Below the pieces are notes generated by a model that saw only the letters and a program-made list of their open reading frames with translations, ran no database searches and was not told where the DNA came from. A DNA stretch of 64,000 nt from Psychromonas algarum (GTDB lineage Bacteria > Pseudomonadota > Gammaproteobacteria > Enterobacterales > Psychromonadaceae): contig NZ_SNUW01000011.1 of assembly GCF_004376845.1 (NCBI RefSeq), forward strand, positions 1 to 64,000. The letters are read 5' to 3'. This document shows, piece by piece, positions 8,284 through 61,886 of the stretch (the first letter of the stretch is position 1; every line of letters begins with the position of its first letter). A program made the translations under genes and the position numbers.

Positions 8284-8499
8284 GAAGACCCCTTTGCAAG
8301 TCTCTAAAAAAATTTACAGAACAATAACTGATCAGCATCTCAGTTAACATATTTTTATGCTGTTTTTGTCTATTTTTTAATATAAATCAATATTAGAAAT
8401 AAAAAGTAGTCTACAAAAATAAATAATTAGAGACAAAAAGAAGGAAAAACAACTCTCATTTGTATGAGGATAACTACCTGAATATATTGTAGGTATATT
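8284..8499. other. Upstream region of amtB, no other feature seen
   Basis: About 215 bp of AT-rich DNA between amtB and the IS630 remnant. It should contain the amtB promoter. I see no ORF, RNA or repeat. Confidence 0.5.
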
Positions 8500-8760
8500 C
8501 TGCTGTCCGAACCGTGCTTCATCCTGTAACCAAATATCAACCTTGTCTACGGCAATATGACCAGGGATTTTAAGGATCGTTTCTATTTGGAACTTTTTAA
8601 AATCTTCTTGGGCTTCGATGGATTGTTTAGGATGCTTAGAGCGTGAGGTTATCCATGAAAATCCTAACCGATGAAGTAATTTATAGACGCTAGATAAGTG
8701 ATATTGATAGCCGAAATGTTCAAGGATAAATGATTGAATATCAGAGCCTATTAAGCGGAA
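8500..8760 (-). pseudogene. Remnant of an IS630-family transposase
   Basis: Read on the minus strand from about 8759, an open stretch without a start codon encodes RLIGSDIQSFILEHFGYQYH and, further on, LLHRLGFSW, PGHIAVDKV and DIWLQDEARFGQQN. This is the end of the winged-helix part and the beginning of the DDE domain of an IS630-type transposase, including its first catalytic Asp (VDIWLQDE). Both the N-terminal part and everything after the first Asp are missing, and the frame continues only into unrelated sequence near 8500. It is a decayed fragment next to the tRNA-Asn cluster. No terminal repeats or TA duplication could be identified. Confidence 0.75.
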
Positions 8761-8803
8761 TGGTATAAATTAGTCGAATGACGATTAACTATAAATTATA
8801 GAC

Positions 8804-8842: not shown

Positions 8843-8918
8843 TGGCTCCTCTTGCTGGGCTTGAACCAGCGACACACGGATTAACAGTCCGTTGCTCTAC
8901 CAACTGAGCTAAAGAGGA
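8843..8918 (-). tRNA. tRNA-Asn (anticodon GTT), copy 3 of the operon
   Basis: A 76-nt tRNA with encoded CCA. The acceptor stem TCCTCTT/AAGAGGA is perfect. The D arm is AGCTCAGTTGGTAGAGC, the anticodon loop CTGTTAA gives GTT, and the T arm is CTGGTTCAAGCCCAG. It is identical in sequence to the two upstream copies and lies last before the terminator. Confidence 0.98.
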
Positions 8919-8984
8919 ATTGTTCTTTTAAGTCTTCAAATTATTAGACTCGTTATGCTTGACATCATCAAGCTTAACTAAATG

Positions 8985-9060
8985 TGGCTCCTCTTGCTGG
9001 GCTTGAACCAGCGACACACGGATTAACAGTCCGTTGCTCTACCAACTGAGCTAAAGAGGA
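8985..9060 (-). tRNA. tRNA-Asn (anticodon GTT), copy 2 of the operon
   Basis: Identical 76-nt tRNA-Asn with encoded CCA. The spacers that separate the copies (about 66 bp each) are also nearly identical (GACTCGTTATGC..GACATCATCAAGC), so the array arose by tandem duplication of a gene-plus-spacer unit. Confidence 0.98.
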
Positions 9061-9126
9061 ATTGTTATTTTAAGTCTTCAAATTATCAGACTCGTTATGC
9101 TCGACATCATCAAGCTTAACTAAATA

Positions 9127-9202
9127 TGGCTCCTCTTGCTGGGCTTGAACCAGCGACACACGGATTAACAGTCCGTTGCTCTACCAACTGAGCTAAAGAG
9201 GA
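9127..9202 (-). tRNA. tRNA-Asn (anticodon GTT), copy 1 of the operon
   Basis: Identical 76-nt tRNA-Asn with encoded CCA. It is the first intact copy behind the promoter at 9338-9366, preceded only by a degenerate tRNA-like copy at 9221-9279. Confidence 0.98.
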
Positions 9203-9220: not shown

Positions 9221-9279
9221 AATCCTAATAGCGAATTAACAGTGTATCTATCGCTCTACCAACTGAGCTAAATAGGATT
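9221..9279 (-). pseudogene. Degenerate tRNA-Asn-like element, T arm missing
   Basis: On the minus strand the 5' half closely copies the neighbouring tRNA-Asn genes: TCCTATTTAGCTCAGTTGGT, AGAGC, then an anticodon-loop-like CTGTTAA. The T arm is absent. The 3' end is TAGGATT, which pairs perfectly with AATCCTA at the 5' end, so a closed 59-nt foldable unit remains. It lies first in the tRNA transcript, between the promoter and the first intact copy. It is most simply a decayed or deleted fourth tRNA-Asn copy; it cannot be a normal elongator tRNA. Confidence 0.7.
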
Positions 9280-11488: not shown

Positions 11489-11639
11489 ATCGATGCAAAT
11501 CTGTTTATTTTTTTAATTGTCGCGTAAACTTCTGCTCGAATATAGATGTTTTAAACTTATCTTTAAAAGATCTATATAGAATACATTTTATTACGTCATA
11601 ATAAACGTACATTGTAAATACATGCATGGAATCAAAACA

Positions 11640-13070
11640 ATGACAACCGCAACCAATATACAACCTGATTACAACATGAAAGTTGTTCGTCAGTTTACAC
11701 TTACCACCATCCTTTGGGGTATCGTGGGAATGAGTGTCGGAGTACTTATTGCAGCCCAACTTATTTGGCCAGCTTTAAACTTTGATACACCTTGGCTTAC
11801 ATACAGTCGCTTACGCCCTTTACATACTAATGCAGTTATTTTTGCCTTTGGTACATCGGCATTAATGGCAACTTCATTTTATGTGGTGCAACGTACCTGC
11901 CAAACAAAGTTATTTGGTGGACCATTAGCCTCTATTGTTTTCTGGGGATGGCAATTAATTATTTTATCTGCCGTTATTACCCTTCCTCTAGGTTACACAA
12001 CATCTAAAGAATACGCTGAATTAGAGTGGCCAATTGATTTATTAATTACAGCGGTTTGGGTTGTGTATGCCATTGTCTTTTTTGGCACATTAACGATAAG
12101 AAAAACATCTCATATTTATGTAGCCAACTGGTTCTTTGGTGCATTTATTCTTACCGTTGCGGTATTACACATTGTTAATAGCTTAGCTATCCCATTATCA
12201 ATGTCCTCAATGAAGTCATACTCTATTTACTCTGGTGCTGTTGATGCAATGGTACAATGGTGGTATGGACATAATGCCGTTGGTTTCTTATTAACAGCTG
12301 GTTTCTTAGGCATGATGTATTACTTCGTACCTAAACAAGCTAACCGCCCTGTTTATTCTTATCGTTTATCAATCATCCATTTCTGGGCTCTGATTGCTGT
12401 TTATATTTGGGCAGGTCCACATCATCTTCATTACACAGCTTTACCTGATTGGGCTCAGTCATTAGGTATGGTGATGTCTATTATCCTATTTGTGCCATCT
12501 TGGGGCGGCATGATCAATGGTATTATGACCTTATCTGGAGCATGGCATAAGCTACGCACAGACCCTATTTTACGTTTCTTAGTTGTTTCATTATCTTTCT
12601 ACGGTATGTCTACGTTTGAAGGACCAATGATGGCGATTAAAACAGTAAACGCATTATCTCACTACACAGACTGGACGGTAGGTCATGTTCATTCAGGTGC
12701 GCTTGGTTGGGTTGCAATGGTAACAATTGGTTCTCTTTACCATTTGGTTCCACGTTTATTTGGCCAAAAAGGCATGTACAGTGTTGCATTAATTAATTTA
12801 CATTTTTGGCTAGCAACAATTGGTACTGTTTTATACATAGTTGCAATGTGGATTTCAGGTGTAATGCAAGGATTAATGTGGAGAGCTGTCAATGCAGACG
12901 GTACATTAACTTATACCTTCGTTGAGTCATTAGAGAAATCTTACCCGTTCTACACAATACGTTTGGTCGGTGGCATTATTTTCTTAAGTGGTATGTTTGT
13001 AATGGCTTACAACACATACAAAACAATCGCTGCTAAAGAAGGCTCTATCAAGCCTCAAGAACTAGGTTAG
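11640..13070 (+). CDS. ccoN: Cytochrome c oxidase cbb3-type, catalytic subunit I
   Basis: The membrane-embedded heme-copper catalytic subunit that reduces O2 to water with high affinity. It has 476 residues and about 12 transmembrane segments. Landmarks are [15 protein letters not shown] near the N-terminus (low-spin heme His), [18 protein letters not shown] in the CuB/active-site helix, and [15 protein letters not shown] and [15 protein letters not shown], which supply further metal and heme ligands. The frame opens at 11622, but the ATG at 11640 gives the family-like N-terminus ([12 protein letters not shown]). It is the first gene of ccoNOQP. FNR regulation is expected because fnr sits in the same island, and possible boxes lie upstream. 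Confidence 0.96.
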
Positions 13071-13083
13071 ACGGGAGTTAATA

Positions 13084-13686
13084 ATGAAACATGAATTTAT
13101 TGAAAAGAATGCAGGCTTATTAGCTGTTTTTATTATCATTGCGATTAGCTTTGGTGGTTTAGCACAAATAACGCCTCTGATATTCCAAAAAGAAATGAAT
13201 GAACCTGTAGATACATTACGTCCTTACACTGCATTAGAAATGGAAGGCCGTGACATTTATATTAAAGAAGGATGTCATGTTTGTCATAGTCAAATGATCC
13301 GCCCTTTCCGAGCTGAAACTGAACGTTACGGTCACTACAGCATGGCAGGTGAGCATGTTTGGGAACATCCATTCTTATGGGGGTCAAAACGTACTGGACC
13401 AGATCTAGCACGTGTTGGTGGTCGTTATTCTGATGCGTGGCATGAAGTACATCTACTGAATCCTCGAGATGTAGTACCACAATCAAATATGCCTAATTTT
13501 CCTTGGTTAGCAACAAATCTGTTAACTGGAGAGGAAACAGCAGCTAAATTAACTATCTTCAGAGATAACTTTGGTGTGCCATACACTGATGAAGATATTG
13601 CAGGTGCTAAAGCTGCCGTTGAAGGTAAGACTGAAATGCAAGCAATTATTGCATACTTACAATCACTTGGTCATGCATTCAAATAA
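13084..13686 (+). CDS. ccoO: cbb3 oxidase monoheme cytochrome c subunit II
   Basis: A 200-residue membrane-anchored cytochrome c that passes electrons from CcoP to CcoN. An N-terminal membrane helix ([18 protein letters not shown]) is followed by the single heme site CHVCH at about residue 63 and then [15 protein letters not shown], typical of CcoO. The later [14 protein letters not shown] region carries the Met ligand. It starts 13 bp after ccoN, with GGGAG in front, so the two genes are translated from one message. Confidence 0.97.
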
Positions 13687-13733
13687 ATAATTATCGTGCC
13701 TAGCAATAGGCACTTTCAGTAGCTGGAGGCTCT

Positions 13734-13925
13734 ATGGATTTTGCAACATTTAACGGACTATATACCTTATTCTTAATTATTATTTTTGTTGCGTTGATTT
13801 TCTGGGCTTATAGTAAAAAACAAAAACAGTCCTTTGAAGAAATGGGTAACTCCATTTTAGATGATGATCTGGACTCAACAGAGTATGAAAGCAATTCAAG
13901 CGAACATACAGGAGCTAAAAAATAA
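13734..13925 (+). CDS. ccoQ: cbb3 oxidase small subunit CcoQ
   Basis: A 63-residue protein with one membrane helix (GLYTLFLIIIFVALIFWAYS, about 8-27) and an acidic soluble tail (ILDDDLDS). CcoQ stabilises or modulates the oxidase complex. It has GGAGG in front of its start, and its stop overlaps the ccoP start by one base. Position, length and topology support the call; CcoQ sequences are little conserved. Confidence 0.88.
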   Translation: MDFATFNGLYTLFLIIIFVALIFWAYSKKQKQSFEEMGNSILDDDLDSTEYESNSSEHTGAKK

Positions 13926-14884
13926 TGAGCATTTTTTGGACAATATGGATCACTACTATCTCACTAATCGTTATTATCGGTTGTGCGGTACTCCTAAAAC
14001 TAGCAAGTAAGAACTCAACTAACGTCAAAGAAGGCGATCCAATGCCTCATACTTTTGACGGGATTCAAGAATTAAATAATCCATTACCTAAATGGTGGGT
14101 TGGTTTATTCTGGTTTTCAATTTTTACAGCATTAATTTATTCAGTTGCTTTTCCTGCTTATACTGCAAATTGGAATGGTTTTTTAAACTGGTCAAGTTCA
14201 GAGCAGAGTGTCAAATCACAAGCTGAATCTGATGAAGTAGCAAAAACGTCTAACTCGCAATATCAACGAGAAATGAATGCCGCTGAAGAAAAGTATGGTG
14301 CTGTATTTAAAAAATTAGCTTATACAGAATCTGGTGACTACAAAGATATCGAGGTTATTGCTAAAGACACAGAAGCAGTAAAAGTAGGACAACGTTTATT
14401 CTTACAAAACTGCGCTCAATGTCATGGCTCAGATGCTCGTGGTGGTAATGGTTTTCCTAATCTTTCAGACAATGATTGGTTATATGGTGGTGAGGCTCTT
14501 ACTATTAAAGAAACCATTATGAAAGGTCGTCATGGTGTAATGCCTGCTTGGAAAGACATCCTAGGTGAACAAGGTGTTAAAGAAGTATCAACTTATGTAT
14601 TACAACTAAGTGGACGCCGCGTAAACTCTATCGAAGCACAAGCAGGTAAAGATCGTTTCGTGATGTGTGCGGCTTGTCATGGTCCAGAAGGTAAAGGTAT
14701 GCATGAATTTGGAGCACCTAATTTAACTGATAAAGTTTGGTTATACGGTGGCTCACGTAAAGCTGTAGAAGATACTGTTCGCAATGGTCGAAATGGTGTG
14801 ATGCCAGCTTGGGGTGATATTTTAGGTGAAGATAAAGTGCAATTATTAGCTGCATTTGTTTATTCTTTATCACAAGAAAAATAA
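13925..14884 (+). CDS. ccoP: cbb3 oxidase diheme cytochrome c subunit III
   Basis: A 319-residue electron-entry subunit. The N-terminus has two membrane helices (about 5-25 and 60-80) around the PHTFDGIQELNNPLPKWW stretch that is typical of CcoP. Two cytochrome c domains follow, with heme sites CAQCH (about 162) and CAACH (about 247). Each domain has an SDNDWLYGG or TDKVWLYGG stretch and a G-V-M-P-A-W Met ligand, so they are internal duplicates. The ATG overlaps the ccoQ stop (TAATG). A terminator follows at 14925. Confidence 0.97.
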   Translation: MSIFWTIWITTISLIVIIGCAVLLKLASKNSTNVKEGDPMPHTFDGIQELNNPLPKWWVGLFWFSIFTALIYSVAFPAYTANWNGFLNWSSSEQSVKSQAESDEVAKTSNSQYQREMNAAEEKYGAVFKKLAYTESGDYKDIEVIAKDTEAVKVGQRLFLQNCAQCHGSDARGGNGFPNLSDNDWLYGGEALTIKETIMKGRHGVMPAWKDILGEQGVKEVSTYVLQLSGRRVNSIEAQAGKDRFVMCAACHGPEGKGMHEFGAPNLTDKVWLYGGSRKAVEDTVRNGRNGVMPAWGDILGEDKVQLLAAFVYSLSQEK

Positions 14885-14924
14885 ACTCAAACAAGCGTAA
14901 CAAAATTAACAAATTAAGACATAA

Positions 14925-14950
14925 AAAGCCTCGTTTATCGGGGCTTTTTT
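14925..14950 (+). terminator. Terminator after ccoP
   Basis: AAAGCCTCG, a short loop and CGGGGCTTT form a stem with one mismatch, followed by TTTT. It separates ccoNOQP from the fixH-ccoIS unit. Confidence 0.85.
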
Positions 14951-15019
14951 ATAGCTAAAATTCACTGTAAATGATAAATTGACGGCCCTAATTACCTTTC
15001 TCTAATAACAGGAACTGTT

Positions 15020-15496
15020 ATGCAAGCAAATACAAAGAAAACCTGGTTTAAACAATTTTGGCCGTGGTTTTTAATTATTTTACCAATGGCTGCTGTTGTT
15101 GCGGGTATCACCACTGTTTTTATCGCCGTTGATAATAAACCTGATATGGTGGTTGATGATTATTATAAAACAGGTAAAGCAATTAATGCCGATTTGAGTT
15201 TGATAAAAAAAGCGAAAGAGTTAGGAATTTCAGCTGTTGTTCAACAGCAAAAAGGTGAACTTTTAATTACACTTGATGGATTAAAAGACCATGCTTCTAT
15301 TAGCTTGTCATTATATCACTCAACACAATCTAAACGAGATAAGATCTTAATGTTAACTGCTGATGGAGAAGGTAAATATCATTTTGAGACAGAAAAATCG
15401 TTAACAGGTAAATGGACACTTCGCATAGAACCTTTTGATAAGCAATGGCGCTTACAAAAACATGTTCAATTTCCAACCAAAGAGATCCTGTTATAG
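15020..15496 (+). CDS. fixH: FixH-like cbb3 oxidase assembly protein
   Basis: A 158-residue membrane-anchored protein of the FixH family (also called CcoH). It has one N-terminal helix (WPWFLIILPMAAVVAGITTVFIAV), then DMVVDDYYKTGKAINADL, the hallmark of the family, then a strand-rich domain ending in LTGKWTLRIEP. It is needed for maturation of the cbb3 complex; its exact job is not settled. Its stop abuts the ATG of the copper ATPase gene, so the two are translated together. AGGAAC precedes its start. Confidence 0.88.
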   Translation: MQANTKKTWFKQFWPWFLIILPMAAVVAGITTVFIAVDNKPDMVVDDYYKTGKAINADLSLIKKAKELGISAVVQQQKGELLITLDGLKDHASISLSLYHSTQSKRDKILMLTADGEGKYHFETEKSLTGKWTLRIEPFDKQWRLQKHVQFPTKEILL

Positions 15497-17917
15497 ATGA
15501 AAGAAGTAAGTCTTTGCTTTCATTGTGGAGAGCCTAATCCAACAAATACCATCTTTAAAGTAGTTATTAACGATGTACAACAAAATATGTGCTGCCCTGG
15601 CTGTGAGGCCATTGCTCAAACCATCGTTGATAGTGGGTTAAGCTCTTATTATGAACATCGAACAGAAGTGGCGAATAAAGGTGAAGATTTAATTCCTGAA
15701 GAGTTACAACAACTTAAACATTATGATCTTGAACAAATACAGTCAGATTTTATAAAAAAATCTGGCGAGATAACTGAAATAACACTCACCATCGAAGGCA
15801 TTAGTTGTGCCGCTTGTGCTTGGCTAATCGAAAAACAGTTACGTTTTTTACCCGGCATTATGTTTGTTAACGTTAATACAACCTTAAACCGAGCTTTAAT
15901 CCGTTGGGATAATAAACAAGTTGCGTTAAGTAAAATATTACAACAAATCCAACGCATTGGTTATAAAGGCTACCCTTTCCAAGTTAATCAACAAGAAGTT
16001 TTTTATACCGCACAAGTGAAATCTTATTTACGACGTTTAGGACTAGCTGGCCTAGCAACCATGCAGGTTATGATGTTTGCAATTGCTCTTTATGCTGATT
16101 TCTTTTCAGGTATGGAAGAAGAGTTTATACACTACTTTAGATGGGTCAGTTTTATTATTGCTACACCTGTATTACTGTATAGTGCACAACCCTTTTATGC
16201 TAATGCGTGGCGTAATATTCGAAATAAAACACTGGGAATGGATATCCCTATTTCAATTGCTTTATTAGGAGCTTATACAGCGTCAGGTTATGCAACAATT
16301 GTTGGGCGAGGTGAAGTTTATTTCGAGTCTGTCGCTATGTTTACCTTTCTATTACTATTAGGAAGATTATTAGAACTACGTGCCCGACGCAAAGCATCTG
16401 AAACAAGTAGTAACTTATTACGTTTACTGCCTTCAATGGCGACTTTAATAGACGTTACTAATGATGTATCAACTCATCAACTCATACCAGCAAAAACATT
16501 AGTGGCAGGGCAGAAAATATTAGTTAAACCAGGTGAAACAATTGCTGTTGATGGCAAAATAATTGATGGTCAAAGTAATATTGAAGAATCTATGCTAACC
16601 GGTGAGCATTTACCTGTTTTCAAGCAAGCTCAAGATAGTGTTTATGCCGGCACAGTTAATATTAGTAGTGTATTAACTATTGAAGTGGTAAATGTGGGTA
16701 ATAACACATTAATAGCTGACATTATTCAATTACAAAATAATGCTCAACAAAATAAACCACGTATTGAAGTGATGGCAGATACGGTTTCCCGCTATTTTGT
16801 CGCTGCGTTATTAGTCATCGCGACTTTGACTTACATTGGTTGGAGTATTATCGATGCAGATCAAGCTTTTTGGATAACTTTATCTGTGTTAGTTGCAACC
16901 TGTCCATGTGCATTATCTCTTGCGACCCCAACAGCACTTACTTGTGCGACGGCACAACTAAACAAGCAAGGCATATTGATTAAACAACACCATGTTTTAG
17001 AAACACTGAATAAGATTCAACACATTGTATTTGATAAAACGGGAACATTAACAGAAGGTAATTTTAAGCTCTTAAAAACACATTTGTACCCAAAAAATTC
17101 CAATCAAAGTTATACTGAGCAACAATGTATTGATATTGCAGCTAACCTCGAAATAAATTCAGAGCACCCTATTGCAGTTGCTTTCTCTCAGTTACAAAAC
17201 CAAGTATTGCAACTGAGTAATATCGAAAATATACCAAGCCAAGGATTACAAGCTTCTTGGAGAAATAACGATACAATACAACAAATAAAATTGGGCCATG
17301 CTAAATTTTGTCAAGTTGAGCAAGAGCTAGAAAGTAAAGAGTTAGCAATCTACTTAACCGTTGATGAGCAATTAATTGCAATCTTTGAATTAGGTGATGA
17401 AATACGGAGTACTGCAGCAGCATTAACTGACTTCTGCCAGCTTAAAAAATTAAAAACAACCATGTTAACAGGTGATATTTCAAATAAAAGTGAAGAAGTC
17501 GCCAAACAATTAAATATTGAGACAGTGATTAAAGGTGTCAACCCACAACAAAAACTCACCTATATTCAGGAATTACAACAAACACAGCAAGTGATGATGA
17601 TTGGGGATGGTATTAATGATGCACCGGTTTTAGCAGGAGCTCATGTTTCTGTAGCTTTAGCTAGTGGGACTGATATAGCAAAAAATTGTGCAGATGTTAT
17701 TTTACTTGGTTCACATTTACAAAAAATTAGTTTATTAATGAATAATGCTAAAAAGACAACCCGTATCATTAGGGAGAATCTAGCTTGGTCATTGGGTTAT
17801 AACCTTATCATTATGCCACTAGCAGTGATGGGCTTAGTTCCGCCTTACATTGCAGTACTAGGCATGTCTTTCAGTTCACTTATCGTTGTCAGTAACTCTT
17901 TAAGGTTATTAAAATGA
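15497..17917 (+). CDS. ccoI: Copper-exporting P1B-type ATPase for cbb3 assembly
   Basis: An 806-residue inner-membrane ATPase (FixI/CcoI) that moves Cu(I) across the membrane for the CuB centre of CcoN. In order: an N-terminal Cys-rich segment (CFHCGEPNP, CCPGCEA), a heavy-metal-binding domain with CAAC at about 104, eight predicted helices, the metal-transport CPC motif (TCPCALSLATPTA, about 469), the phosphorylation site DKTGTLT (about 512) and the hinge GDGINDAP (about 703). The N-terminal CxxC cluster marks the CcoI subgroup rather than CopA. Its ATG directly follows the fixH stop, and its stop overlaps the ccoS start (ATGA). Confidence 0.95.
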   Translation: MKEVSLCFHCGEPNPTNTIFKVVINDVQQNMCCPGCEAIAQTIVDSGLSSYYEHRTEVANKGEDLIPEELQQLKHYDLEQIQSDFIKKSGEITEITLTIEGISCAACAWLIEKQLRFLPGIMFVNVNTTLNRALIRWDNKQVALSKILQQIQRIGYKGYPFQVNQQEVFYTAQVKSYLRRLGLAGLATMQVMMFAIALYADFFSGMEEEFIHYFRWVSFIIATPVLLYSAQPFYANAWRNIRNKTLGMDIPISIALLGAYTASGYATIVGRGEVYFESVAMFTFLLLLGRLLELRARRKASETSSNLLRLLPSMATLIDVTNDVSTHQLIPAKTLVAGQKILVKPGETIAVDGKIIDGQSNIEESMLTGEHLPVFKQAQDSVYAGTVNISSVLTIEVVNVGNNTLIADIIQLQNNAQQNKPRIEVMADTVSRYFVAALLVIATLTYIGWSIIDADQAFWITLSVLVATCPCALSLATPTALTCATAQLNKQGILIKQHHVLETLNKIQHIVFDKTGTLTEGNFKLLKTHLYPKNSNQSYTEQQCIDIAANLEINSEHPIAVAFSQLQNQVLQLSNIENIPSQGLQASWRNNDTIQQIKLGHAKFCQVEQELESKELAIYLTVDEQLIAIFELGDEIRSTAAALTDFCQLKKLKTTMLTGDISNKSEEVAKQLNIETVIKGVNPQQKLTYIQELQQTQQVMMIGDGINDAPVLAGAHVSVALASGTDIAKNCADVILLGSHLQKISLLMNNAKKTTRIIRENLAWSLGYNLIIMPLAVMGLVPPYIAVLGMSFSSLIVVSNSLRLLK

Positions 17918-18111
17918 GTATTATTTATGTATTGATTCCAATTGCAATGATCTTTGTATCAATTGCAGTGTTAGTTTTCTTTTGGGCTGTTAAATCTAAT
18001 CAATATGAAGACTTAGATAGAGAAGGTGTCAATATTTTATTTGATGAAGATATGCCAACAAACACACCATCAGAAAACATTAAAGATGATATAAAAACAG
18101 ATGCTCATTAA
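17914..18111 (+). CDS. ccoS: cbb3 oxidase maturation protein CcoS
   Basis: A 65-residue protein with one N-terminal helix (IYVLIPIAMIFVSIAVLVFFWAV), then SNQYEDLDREGVNILFDED, the diagnostic CcoS/FixS sequence. In other bacteria loss of CcoS leaves the oxidase without heme and copper. It overlaps ccoI by 4 bp and the next gene by 11 bp, so it sits in the middle of a tightly coupled operon. Confidence 0.93.
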   Translation: MSIIYVLIPIAMIFVSIAVLVFFWAVKSNQYEDLDREGVNILFDEDMPTNTPSENIKDDIKTDAH

Positions 18112-18778
18112 TGATTTTTTTAGTGCATTTTTAATTGGTTTGTTAGGCGCAGGCCATTGCATTGGCATGTGTTCAGGTATAGCGAGTGCTTTAAGTTTTT
18201 CAATAAACCCTCGGCAAAAAAATGCCCTATTAGCTCTATTTTTGTATAACTTAGGTCGTATTAGTAGTTATTCTGTTGCTGGTTTTATATTTGCAGCAAG
18301 TAGCGGTATCTTGATTATATGGATGGGTGGTAAAGAGTCACTTATTTACTTACGTATTATTGCCGCCATCATGATGCTTTTATTAGCATGTTATATTGCT
18401 AGAATATGGAATGGTTTATTATTTGTAGAACGTACAGGCCAACTTCTATGGAAGTTTATTAAACCATTAGCACAATATTTTTTACCCTTAAAACACCCTC
18501 TTTTAGCATTTCCTTTAGGATTTTTCTGGGGGTGGTTGCCATGCGGTTTAGTGTATTCAACCTTAGTATGGGCTATTAGCACTGCAGACGCAGTTAATGG
18601 TCTTATTATTATGTTGGGATTTGGACTAGGCACCTTGCCAGCGATGATGTTAGTGGGTTCGCTAAGCCATAAATTAAAACATATTCTTAATAAAAAATGG
18701 TTCAGATATGGTAGTGGTATCATTCTTTGTTTATTTGCTTTTCAAACTCTCTTTGTCGCAATAAAGCAACTTTATTAA
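18101..18778 (+). CDS. TauE/UreH-like membrane protein of the cbb3 cluster
   Basis: A 225-residue protein with about six membrane helices. The opening GLLGAGHCIGMCSGI carries the H-C-x-G-M-C motif of the UreH-like/DsbD-like transmembrane family, often annotated as a sulfite exporter. A second matching half begins at FPLGFFWGWLPCGLVYS, which again has a membrane Cys. It overlaps ccoS by 11 bp. Genes of this kind are regular neighbours of ccoS, so a role in copper delivery or thiol redox during oxidase assembly is likelier than sulfite export. That role is inferred from context. Confidence 0.8.
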   Translation: MLINDFFSAFLIGLLGAGHCIGMCSGIASALSFSINPRQKNALLALFLYNLGRISSYSVAGFIFAASSGILIIWMGGKESLIYLRIIAAIMMLLLACYIARIWNGLLFVERTGQLLWKFIKPLAQYFLPLKHPLLAFPLGFFWGWLPCGLVYSTLVWAISTADAVNGLIIMLGFGLGTLPAMMLVGSLSHKLKHILNKKWFRYGSGIILCLFAFQTLFVAIKQLY

Positions 18779-18887
18779 AAAAATATTTATAAAAGTCAGG
18801 TTTACTTCAAATTCATAATAACTCGGTAATGGACGACTTGTTTTATATCAATTTGTGTATTCAAAGGCTCTTTATAAAATGCTACAA

Positions 18888-18901
18888 TTGACTTAAATCA
18901 A
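18888..18901. promoter_or_regulatory. FNR box upstream of fnr
   Basis: TTGACTTAAATCAA matches TTGAT-N4-ATCAA at 9 of 10 positions. It lies 12 bp before the annotated fnr start, where bound FNR would block the promoter. Negative autoregulation of this kind is known for E. coli fnr. Confidence 0.7.
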
Positions 18902-18913
18902 CAAACTTTAAGA

Positions 18914-19663
18914 ATGTATATGGATAAAAATAATTCAAGTCGACTACAAACAGGTGGCTGTGCAATTCATTGCCAAGATTGCAGCATTAGCCAATTATGT
19001 ATCCCTTATTCATTAAATGAGACTGAATTAGATCGTTTAGATACTATTATTGAGCGTAAAAAACCTATACAAAAAGGCCAAGAAATCTTTAAAGCCGGTG
19101 AAGAAATGAAATGCTTATATGCAATTCGTTCTGGTACCTTAAAGTCTTACACTATTACAGAGCAAGGTGACGAACAAATAACAGCTTTTCACTTAGCAGG
19201 TGATTTAGTTGGATTTGATGGCATCAGCTCAGGTACACATCCAAGTTTTTCACAAGCACTTGAAACAGCAATGATTTGTGAAATTCCCTACGAAACACTA
19301 GATCACTTATCAACAACAATGCCGAAATTAAGACAACAAATATTACGTCTAATGAGTGCAGAGATTGTAGGTGATCAAAACATGATTTTGTTACTTTCGA
19401 AGAAAAATGCAGAAGAAAGATTAGCTTCTTTTATTCACAATCTTTCAGTTCGTTATGCGGCACGAGGTTTCTCTCCAAGAGAGTTTAGATTATCAATGAC
19501 TCGAGGAGATATTGGCAACTACCTTGGTTTAACCGTTGAAACTATCAGCCGATTATTAGGTCGTTTCCAAAAAAGTGGCATGATTGCAGTGAAAGGCAAA
19601 TACATCACAATATTAGATGAAGATCAATTAGCAGAGTTAGCAGGTGCCGTAGATAAAATATAA
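18914..19663 (+). CDS. fnr: Anaerobic transcription regulator FNR/EtrA
   Basis: A 249-residue global O2-sensing regulator of the CRP/FNR family. The N-terminal [16 protein letters not shown] supplies Cys20, 23 and 29, and AMICEIP supplies Cys122; these are the four [4Fe-4S] ligands at the same numbers as in E. coli. A cyclic-nucleotide-type beta-roll follows, and then the winged helix with the recognition sequence [16 protein letters not shown] (about 208-223; E209, S212 and R213 in E. coli numbering). A Met at codon 3 (18920) has better ribosome-site spacing and could be the true start. Placement directly after the cbb3 genes and before uspE links regulator and target. A 9/10 FNR box lies upstream. 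Confidence 0.97.
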
Positions 19664-42385: not shown

Positions 42386-42760
42386 TTAAAAAGCATAATT
42401 AGTTAATTTTTCCTTTTTAGGAAATATTTGTTTTTTGACAACTGGAGTAGGAGTTGGTTTATGTACTTTAGAACGCTGAGTTAGACACGAAAAATGTAAT
42501 GTGGTTTTGCTATCATTACCAATTAAACCAATATATTCATTAAGCGATTCAACTTTCATATAACGATTTTTATTTAAACAATATTCATTTGCTTGTGAGA
42601 AAACAGCCGTTAATAAATCTTCTTTTTTACTCGCAAAACTAGATAATTGTTTACTCACTACGTAACTATTTTTACCTGCAGATAGCGGTCCTACAGAGTG
42701 AGAAGAACAACCAGATAACAGCCATAAACTTGCAATAGATATTAATATTTTATTCATCAT
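42386..42760 (-). CDS. Small putative lipoprotein of unknown function
   Basis: A 124-residue protein with a lipoprotein signal (ILISIASLWLLSGCSSHS; lipobox L-S-G-C, Cys at about 18). The mature part is polar, with two further Cys (NEYCLNK, HFSCLTQ) and a basic, Pro-rich end (VHKPTPTPVVKKQIFPKKEK) that could approach peptidoglycan. It stands alone between ydiJ and the broken cytochrome gene. I do not recognise a family. Confidence 0.6.
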   Translation of the reverse strand: MMNKILISIASLWLLSGCSSHSVGPLSAGKNSYVVSKQLSSFASKKEDLLTAVFSQANEYCLNKNRYMKVESLNEYIGLIGNDSKTTLHFSCLTQRSKVHKPTPTPVVKKQIFPKKEKLTNYAF

Positions 42761-42943: not shown

Positions 42944-43045
42944 AAAAATTTCAAAATTTCAAATCAGCAAGTTTTTTTAATTTAAAACAATTTACATATT
43001 CAACAGATAAGTATAATCAAAAAAACTTTAATATAAGGTGAGATA

Positions 43046-43371
43046 ATGAATTTCAGTAAGTTCCTACTACTTTCTGTACTAATGAGCAGTTCAAGCATTC
43101 ACGCAAATACATTAGTCGGAATGCACAACAAGGAAAAATAAAATCTCCTAGCTGCGGTTTTTGTCATGGGAAAAATGGTATAGCACCAAGTCCTATCTAC
43201 CCTAACCTACAAGGACAAAAGTCAGTTTATTTAATCAATAGTATAAGAGCTTACCAACAGGGTTTGAGGGAAGGTCCAATGGCGAAGATGATGCAACAAC
43301 AACTTAGTAAATTAAATGATCAAGATTTAGCTGATATTGCTGCTTATTATCAAAGCATGAAAAATCAATAG
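43046..43371 (+). pseudogene. Small c-type cytochrome (c4/c553-like) broken by a frameshift
   Basis: The ATG at 43046, behind AAGGTGAG, begins a good signal peptide (MNFSKFLLLSVLMSSSSIHA). That frame stops at 43141 after 31 codons. From about 43120 the third frame continues as NAQQGKIKSPSCGFCHGKNG, with the heme site CGFCH at 43153-43167, a Met-containing GPMAKMMQQQ and a normal end at 43371. One base missing near 43120 (GGAATG for GGAAATG) would explain everything and join Gly-Asn-Ala-Gln-Gln-Gly-Lys, the normal start of such cytochromes. It is either a recent mutation or a sequencing error. The intact protein would be a roughly 90-residue periplasmic electron carrier. Confidence 0.75.
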
Positions 43372-43443
43372 TACAAAGCCATCCCCTATTTTAGGTTATT
43401 GGCTTTGACATGTTTACTTGTAAATTCTAATGGTTAACAAAAA

Positions 43444-44739
43444 CTATTTAAGTAATAAATCACTGATTGTTTCAATACCGTGACCTTTACCACCAGCCGC
43501 CCATAAACCATTAGCAGATAATTGATAACTACCTGACAAATCAAAATGCAGCCAATTTTGTTCAGGCTGTAAAACAAACTTAGCTAAGAATGCAGCAGCT
43601 GTTGATGCCCCAGCCATACTTTCACCACCACTATGAATATTCGCAATATCAGCAAATGCGGAGTTTATTTGCTGTAGATGGAAAGACTCTAATGGTAAAC
43701 GCCAAAGTTTATCATTCACTTGATTAGCACTTTCTAATGCAGAAGCTGTAAACTCATCATCCATACTTAATATGCAATTATAATCGCGGCCTACAGCCAC
43801 TTTAGCTGCACCTGTTAATGTCGCTGCATCAATTATTTTTTTCGCACCATCTTCTTGCGCAGCGATTAATCCATCTGCAAGTACTAATCGGCCTTCAGCA
43901 TCTGTGTTTAAAACTTCAACACTGACACCATTTTTATAATTAATAACATCACCTAATTTAAATGCTTCTCCACTGATCATGTTTTCAGCACAACATAGGT
44001 ATAATTTAACACGCTTTTGTAAACCACCTGCAATTGCTAAAGCTAATGCACCAGTAACGGTTGCCGCACCTCCCATATCACTTTTCATCGCAGCCATTGA
44101 TGGGCTCGGTTTAAGGCTATAACCACCTGAATCAAAGGTAATACCTTTACCAACTAAAGCAAAATCAATAGCAGCATCAGGATCACCACTTGGGTTATAA
44201 TCAAGCTGCAGCATACATGGCATATTAATACTGCCTTTACCCACTGCATGAATACCAACGTAACCATCTGTAATTAATTGTTCTCCTAAAATAAGCTTAG
44301 ATTGCAGTTCTACTTTACCTGCACTCACTTGCTTTAATAGTGAACTAGCTTTTTCGCATAACACTTCAGGTGTAACAATAGTTGGACCAAGGTTGATCGT
44401 TTCTCTTACCCACTCACTAATTAACTTTTTATTTTTTAAAGTTTCAATTGCTTCATCATCTAATTCGGGAAATTGGATTTCAGCACCATTTTTAGGATTA
44501 TAAAAACCTTGGCTAAATGCCCAACATAAATCAGAATTCCATTGTTCGCCAACAAGCTTAACTTTTGCTAATGACATGGTATCTAATTTTCTAGCTGCAC
44601 TTTGTACTTGTGCAAGTACATCACTCATATAGTTAATATGGATAGTTGCCTGCTCTTGTTCAAAAGACAATAACGCATTATCACCCCAGACAACATTTGC
44701 TTTTTGATCGGATAAAGTAACTAAAAATGGTTGGCTCAT
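43444..44739 (-). CDS. pepB: Leucyl aminopeptidase family peptidase B
   Basis: A 431-residue cytosolic M17 metallo-aminopeptidase (E. coli PepB, 427). The two-metal site is seen in FALVGKGITFDSGGYSLKPS (about 195-214) and in VEVLNTDAEGRLVLADGL, the M17 signature. ACATLTGA-like DAATLTGAAKVAVG follows. It degrades peptides with acidic N-terminal residues. As in E. coli it ends the isc cluster, but a strong terminator (44757-44781) lies between iscX and pepB. AAGGAATATT precedes the start. Confidence 0.96.
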   Translation of the reverse strand: MSQPFLVTLSDQKANVVWGDNALLSFEQEQATIHINYMSDVLAQVQSAARKLDTMSLAKVKLVGEQWNSDLCWAFSQGFYNPKNGAEIQFPELDDEAIETLKNKKLISEWVRETINLGPTIVTPEVLCEKASSLLKQVSAGKVELQSKLILGEQLITDGYVGIHAVGKGSINMPCMLQLDYNPSGDPDAAIDFALVGKGITFDSGGYSLKPSPSMAAMKSDMGGAATVTGALALAIAGGLQKRVKLYLCCAENMISGEAFKLGDVINYKNGVSVEVLNTDAEGRLVLADGLIAAQEDGAKKIIDAATLTGAAKVAVGRDYNCILSMDDEFTASALESANQVNDKLWRLPLESFHLQQINSAFADIANIHSGGESMAGASTAAAFLAKFVLQPEQNWLHFDLSGSYQLSANGLWAAGGKGHGIETISDLLLK

Positions 44740-61669: not shown

Positions 61670-61702
61670 CGCTTTCAACAGAACTTGTTATCATTCTCAG
61701 TT

Positions 61703-61816
61703 CTTATAGTCGGGGAGCCTAATTCAGTAATAAAGACTGAGAATATAGTGCTGAGATCGATATATCGATACCCGTTGAACCTGATACAGTTAATACTGAC
61801 GCAGGGAACTATTTAT
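61703..61816 (+). ncRNA. TPP riboswitch (THI element)
   Basis: The conserved parts of the thiamine pyrophosphate aptamer are all visible: CGGGGAGCC (61711-61719), the pyrimidine-sensor CTGAGATC (61751-61758), ACCCGTTGAACCTGATACAG (61770-61789), and TTAATACTGACGCAGGGA (61790-61807). The closing P1 helix is ATAGT/ACTAT. About 70 nt lie between it and the thiD start, with GGAG just before the ATG. I see no obvious intrinsic terminator there, so control of translation is likelier than of transcription. It should shut off thiD and the transporter genes when thiamine pyrophosphate is plentiful. Confidence 0.95.
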
Positions 61817-61886
61817 AAACCGTCCATCTGTAACTCACTTGGTTCTTTCTGGTTGATATAGTTTCGATAGCGCAGTATTCGGAGCA

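Follow-up and report, generated by a model that had tools for sequence, protein, structure and literature searches.

A single missing base splits a small c-type cytochrome gene of Psychromonas algarum, most likely as a very young null allele

A small cytochrome gene of Psychromonas algarum, located at positions 43046-43371 of the 64,000-nucleotide stretch of DNA analysed here (the window), has its signal peptide and its haem domain in two different reading frames. By every comparison made at the sequence level, the locus is one gene that is short of a base. Most likely, an accessory cytochrome gene lost one base just after the signal peptide and is now a very young null allele. We give this reading, jointly with the product class proposed below, a probability of roughly 0.55. 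The main rival is an error in the sequence, and bypass of the break by ribosomes is unlikely.

The gene consists of two overlapping pieces that are each well formed (Table 1). The signal-peptide piece has a 9-residue Kyte-Doolittle peak of 2.5 and provides an export signal, but in another frame than the haem domain. The haem frame contains SCGFCHG, has no internal stop and offers no ATG, GTG or TTG from its upstream stop (43057-43059) to 43264. The haem piece matches the Pfam family Cytochrom_C (PF00034) at 35 bits (cut-off 21.3; E 3.8e-8), far above chance, and its closest solved structures are cytochromes c4, c552 and c554. Cytochrome c552 (PDB 1cno) and cytochrome c554 (PDB 2zzs) match nearly the whole piece with E values of 1e-22 and 5.3e-20, respectively; unlike in these proteins, the frame of the window gene is broken between the signal peptide and the mature part. 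M58 is a candidate for the axial ligand, which in this class is a methionine of the C-terminal half. The product would thus probably be a small, exported, single-haem class I cytochrome c that acts as a c552/c554-like periplasmic electron carrier. The first-pass annotation, made from the DNA letters, had already proposed a small c-type cytochrome gene with both parts intact in different frames; the PF00034 match and the CxxCH motif support the gene class, and direct reading, the open reading frames and the Pfam match support the split.

Table 1. Features of the split cytochrome locus and its surroundings, in window positions.
Feature	Position	Strand	Basis or remark
Small lipoprotein-like gene	42386..42760	-	Open reading frame; adjoins pepB without a cytochrome in 7/20 relatives' loci
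Shine-Dalgarno-like AAGGTGAG	43035..43042	+	Read directly, before the signal-peptide ATG
Signal-peptide piece, 31 codons from ATG 43046, MNFSKFLLLSVLMSSSSIHA then NTLVG	43046..43141	+	TAA end at 43139-43141
Frame break; spacing shorter than in relatives by one base	43119..43120	+	Interval between cleavage site and G-(D/N) in relatives
Haem-domain piece of class I cytochrome c, 83 codons	43120..43371	+	Open frame, Pfam match, solved relatives, trees
Slip-prone spot GAA AAA TAA	43133..43141	+	Sole site in the signal-peptide frame for near re-pairing of both tRNAs after a -1 shift
CGFCH haem-attachment motif (CxxCH)	43153..43167	+	Read directly
Candidate axial methionine, residue 58 of the haem piece (M58)	43291..43293	+	Alignment column common to relatives
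Intergenic hairpin; cytochrome and pepB genes converge on it	43374..43407	.	Folding z -2.6
Aminopeptidase PepB	43444..44739	-	NF003450

Homologous loci locate the missing base. Searches with the haem piece yielded 136 loci (L002-L033 and L064-L167) from genome collections and two plasmid records, drawn from the best 80 of 111 matches plus up to 30 of the best per genome search, with some genes counted twice (for example, L005/L065 and L003/L004). In 136/136 of these loci, among the matches listed, a hydrophobic leader and the haem domain share one open frame. Orthologues that start directly at the haem part without a leader, the pattern that the first-pass annotation had named as speaking against its reading, account for 0/136 loci among the matches listed. 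The distance between the cleavage site, which was placed by eye in the window and the relatives alike (slash), and the haem domain also agrees between genes. Psychromonas hadalis reads NA/QMPVGDANLG and Enterovibrio norvegicus reads SA/DMPVGNSDLG, and HA/NTLVG joined to NAQQG in the window reproduces the spacing of these two relatives if one base is missing at 43119/43120, in line with the earlier placement of the loss near 43120. As in a pseudogene, the frame of the window gene is disrupted relative to intact homologues.

Could the two pieces instead be unrelated short frames that resemble one gene by chance, or could the haem piece encode a leaderless cytoplasmic haem protein? Both pieces are short, as these ideas require, but the domain match, the family spacing and the leader that is in frame in 136/136 loci among the matches listed all argue against them, as does the lack of a usual start codon in the haem frame before 43264; we consider either idea far-fetched. 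In the order-wide comparison, a stop falls within the matched stretch in four rows, and it lies at the C-terminal end in L021 and L167 (both read). A separate frame break was observed in L033 (G022:C1:2352141-2352379) of another Psychromonas genome, which lies outside the window gene's clade; this locus is among the 136 with leader and haem domain in one frame and is broken further down, in its C-terminal half, where the search matched it in two pieces and its frame is truncated.

The haem piece bears no mark of decay other than the break, as the first-pass annotation had noted. It keeps 24/25 columns that are invariant among five clade members, including the residues directly after the break, and 18/18 columns that reach at least 90% conservation across 24 other rows. 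No in-frame stop is present, though 49/963 one-step changes would create one. The 16 residues that begin one codon past the break, AQQGKIKSPSCGFCHG, are identical in L147, which belongs to another family of the order. The end branch of the window gene measures 0.10, 0.21 and 0.26 in three trees, and P. hadalis has the longer branch each time (0.41, 0.48 and 0.52). Two of the window gene's values (0.21 and 0.26) exceed the median end branch, 0.11, so that branch length alone is a weak argument that excludes a long decay only loosely. A calculation by hand with about 2.2 replacement sites per conserved codon suggests, as a loose bound, that neutral drift since the break amounts to no more than roughly 0.1 changes per site. 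Given the preserved haem piece and a branch not longer than that of the nearest relative, the break is either of very recent origin or a fault in the sequence.

A sequencing or assembly error that dropped one base from a gene intact and functional in the organism is a serious possibility, which we hold to be somewhat less probable than a null allele. Everything else in the gene is preserved, down to the codons that immediately follow the break (NAQQG; cf. DAQQGKIKSPSCGFCHG in L147), and the absence of a second lesion, which fits a young null allele, is what a sequence error would also show. Furthermore, a passage in Antonov et al. 2013 (PMC3711429) expects singleton frameshifts confirmed by BLAST to stem from sequencing errors and not from genuine indels. 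What speaks against an error is that 48,319 bases of conserved coding sequence in the window showed no second frame break and that the break lies outside any run of at least four equal bases. The screen used 126 open reading frames from the pepB neighbourhoods of two relatives, of which 88 match the window over those 48,319 bases; 0/88 are split over two frames, and the screen would miss short terminal breaks such as the cytochrome's own. Of the three frames flagged as partial, one is CcoS, whose end is shorter, and the other two match weakly at less than 45% identity. The clean 48 kb would bound the error rate at roughly 6e-5 per base and no tighter.

Ribosomal bypass is a third way to account for an intact-looking gene with a broken frame. 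Ribosomes would slip by -1 at GAA AAA before the TAA and produce a full-length cytochrome in which five residues ahead of CxxCH are changed. The frame overlap contains no other tandem-slip-like site, the spot lies directly before the stop, re-pairing after the shift involves 2/3 and 3/3 bases, and the slipped product has the family's length. Compensatory frameshifting is also a recognised class, as set out in a section of Atkins et al. 2016 (PMC5009743). However, a break between leader and haem domain occurs in 0/136 of the relatives' loci among the matches listed, whereas a programmed frameshift would be conserved in relatives, and the slip spot is weak and has no stable downstream fold (z -0.84). 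The codons between the break and the slip spot still encode the family's N-A-x-x-G, and slipping would place MHNKE there instead; the retention of these codons indicates that selection did not act on a slipped product. Slippage during transcription is disfavoured by the length of the A-run, which is five, under the eight or nine A discussed in a part of Baranov et al. 2005 (PMC1088944). Regular bypass is therefore very unlikely, and nothing supports it. A fresh one-base loss for which -1 slippage at GAA AAA TAA partly compensates, yielding a little cytochrome with an altered N-terminus as nascent compensatory frameshifting, is if anything slightly more improbable. The first-pass annotation had listed a recent event, a sequence error and bypass; the list was right, with bypass its weakest member (0/136 loci, no downstream fold).

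The surroundings of pepB in relatives point to an accessory status of the gene. In the window, the cytochrome stands alone between pepB and the lipoprotein-like gene, which has no Pfam match. A haem match beside pepB was found in 0/20 congeneric pepB loci (E 0.01); in 3/24 Psychromonas genomes, the search for pepB turned up a match of about 40% in place of an orthologue. The gene order is pepB, lipoprotein and FAD oxidase in seven of the 20 loci and pepB and FAD oxidase in one. A tblastn search of the pepB-lipoprotein gaps of these seven relatives returned no cytochrome match, and a DNA comparison of the gap for remnants of an empty site gave short weak matches only (best E 0.005 over 49 bases). 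The cytochrome is thus an accessory gene that was gained at this site or lost elsewhere, given that it is not beside pepB in any of the 20 congeneric loci. A hairpin similar to that at 43374-43407, AAAGCCA...TGGCTTT, follows pepB in relatives (by eye). The locus has no terminator-like match and four promoter-like matches, compared with 4.1 in shuffles. Among the matches listed for literature on Psychromonas, genome and cytochrome c, none concerns this gene by its title or the start of its abstract.

Two kinds of mobile cargo were considered and rejected. Phage cargo finds no phage match and no relative in viral contigs. Plasmid cargo finds 66 matching plasmid records, all 66 below 60% identity and 49 of them typed as non-mobilizable; 19/20 records among the matches listed for the haem piece exceed 0.3 Mb. 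Elsewhere in the window, three tRNA-Asn genes with equal scores and a regular 142-base spacing occupy 8843-9202, an apparent decayed fourth copy lies around 9230-9275 (by eye), and a frame that resembles a transposase remnant (8377-8769, minus strand; by eye) adjoins the array. A TPP riboswitch at 61701-61824 scores above the Rfam gathering score.

The window gene belongs to a clade that is rare in its genus. The haem piece groups with the P. hadalis gene L005 and Vibrionaceae genes (L066, L067, L145 and L146); support for this grouping, which also takes in further genes of the order, is 100/99, 100/100 and 100/99 in three trees. One of these trees, which covers the top haem relatives from each of the 23 other Psychromonas genomes, gives support of 100/99 with a bootstrap that had not settled, and P. 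hadalis is the only one of the 23 in which the clade is represented. In a sample of 394 genomes of the order, protein identity to the haem piece reaches 63% at best. The orphan cytochrome of P. hadalis (L005/L065) is 57-59% identical and has the same leader-to-haem spacing; its frame is intact, and it lies near a multicopper-oxidase-like gene (by eye) rather than adjoining pepB. Vibrionaceae L066, L067 and L145 and L147 from another family of the order are 54-64% identical and likewise have intact frames, and neighbours differ in the three Vibrionaceae loci read. A conserved neighbour as a functional partner was rejected on the P. hadalis, Photobacterium, Enterovibrio and Vibrio loci read; neighbours vary between relatives, so no partner can be named.

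What would the loss of this gene mean to the cell? The usual small cytochrome of the genus is a different gene, and it is intact in the same genome. This paralogue (L002, G000:C6:36569-36799) encodes, like the window gene, a small exported monohaem cytochrome; it is 51% identical, falls outside the window gene's clade and lies beside carbonic-anhydrase-like and peroxiredoxin-like genes (named by eye). Retention of the intact paralogue indicates that the window gene is probably dispensable. A two-haem cytochrome gene (L003/L004) is also present, and with both of these genes in the genome, the loss of the window gene is plausibly tolerated. The cytochrome c assembly family PF01578 is represented in the genome by three matches. 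A set of cbb3 cytochrome oxidase genes lies in the window at 11622-19663, together with CcoS, a copper-type ATPase and a Crp-family regulator; COX1, FixO, FixP, copper-type ATPase and FixS families are found at 11622-18111, and the regulator is at 18914-19663. A small periplasmic cytochrome could feed a cbb3 oxidase, and nothing here links the window gene's clade to a partner.

We propose that this accessory cytochrome gene lost one base right after its signal peptide. Ribosomes would initiate normally, produce a 31-residue stub that contains the signal peptide and terminate at 43139. The haem domain, with no start of its own before 43264, would be leaderless and unable to reach the periplasm, the site of haem attachment. 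A stub and a leaderless haem domain would together render the gene null. The break would then be present in the cell rather than introduced by assembly, would be recent and would be tolerated owing to the accessory nature of the gene.

For annotation, the haem domain is to be treated as part of a disrupted cytochrome gene and not as a short leaderless protein. If the break is an error, 43119/43120 marks a position of the assembly to check. If it is real, P. algarum carries one more very young pseudogene, belonging to an accessory electron carrier for which a redundant paralogue exists, and this would be an ordinary finding.
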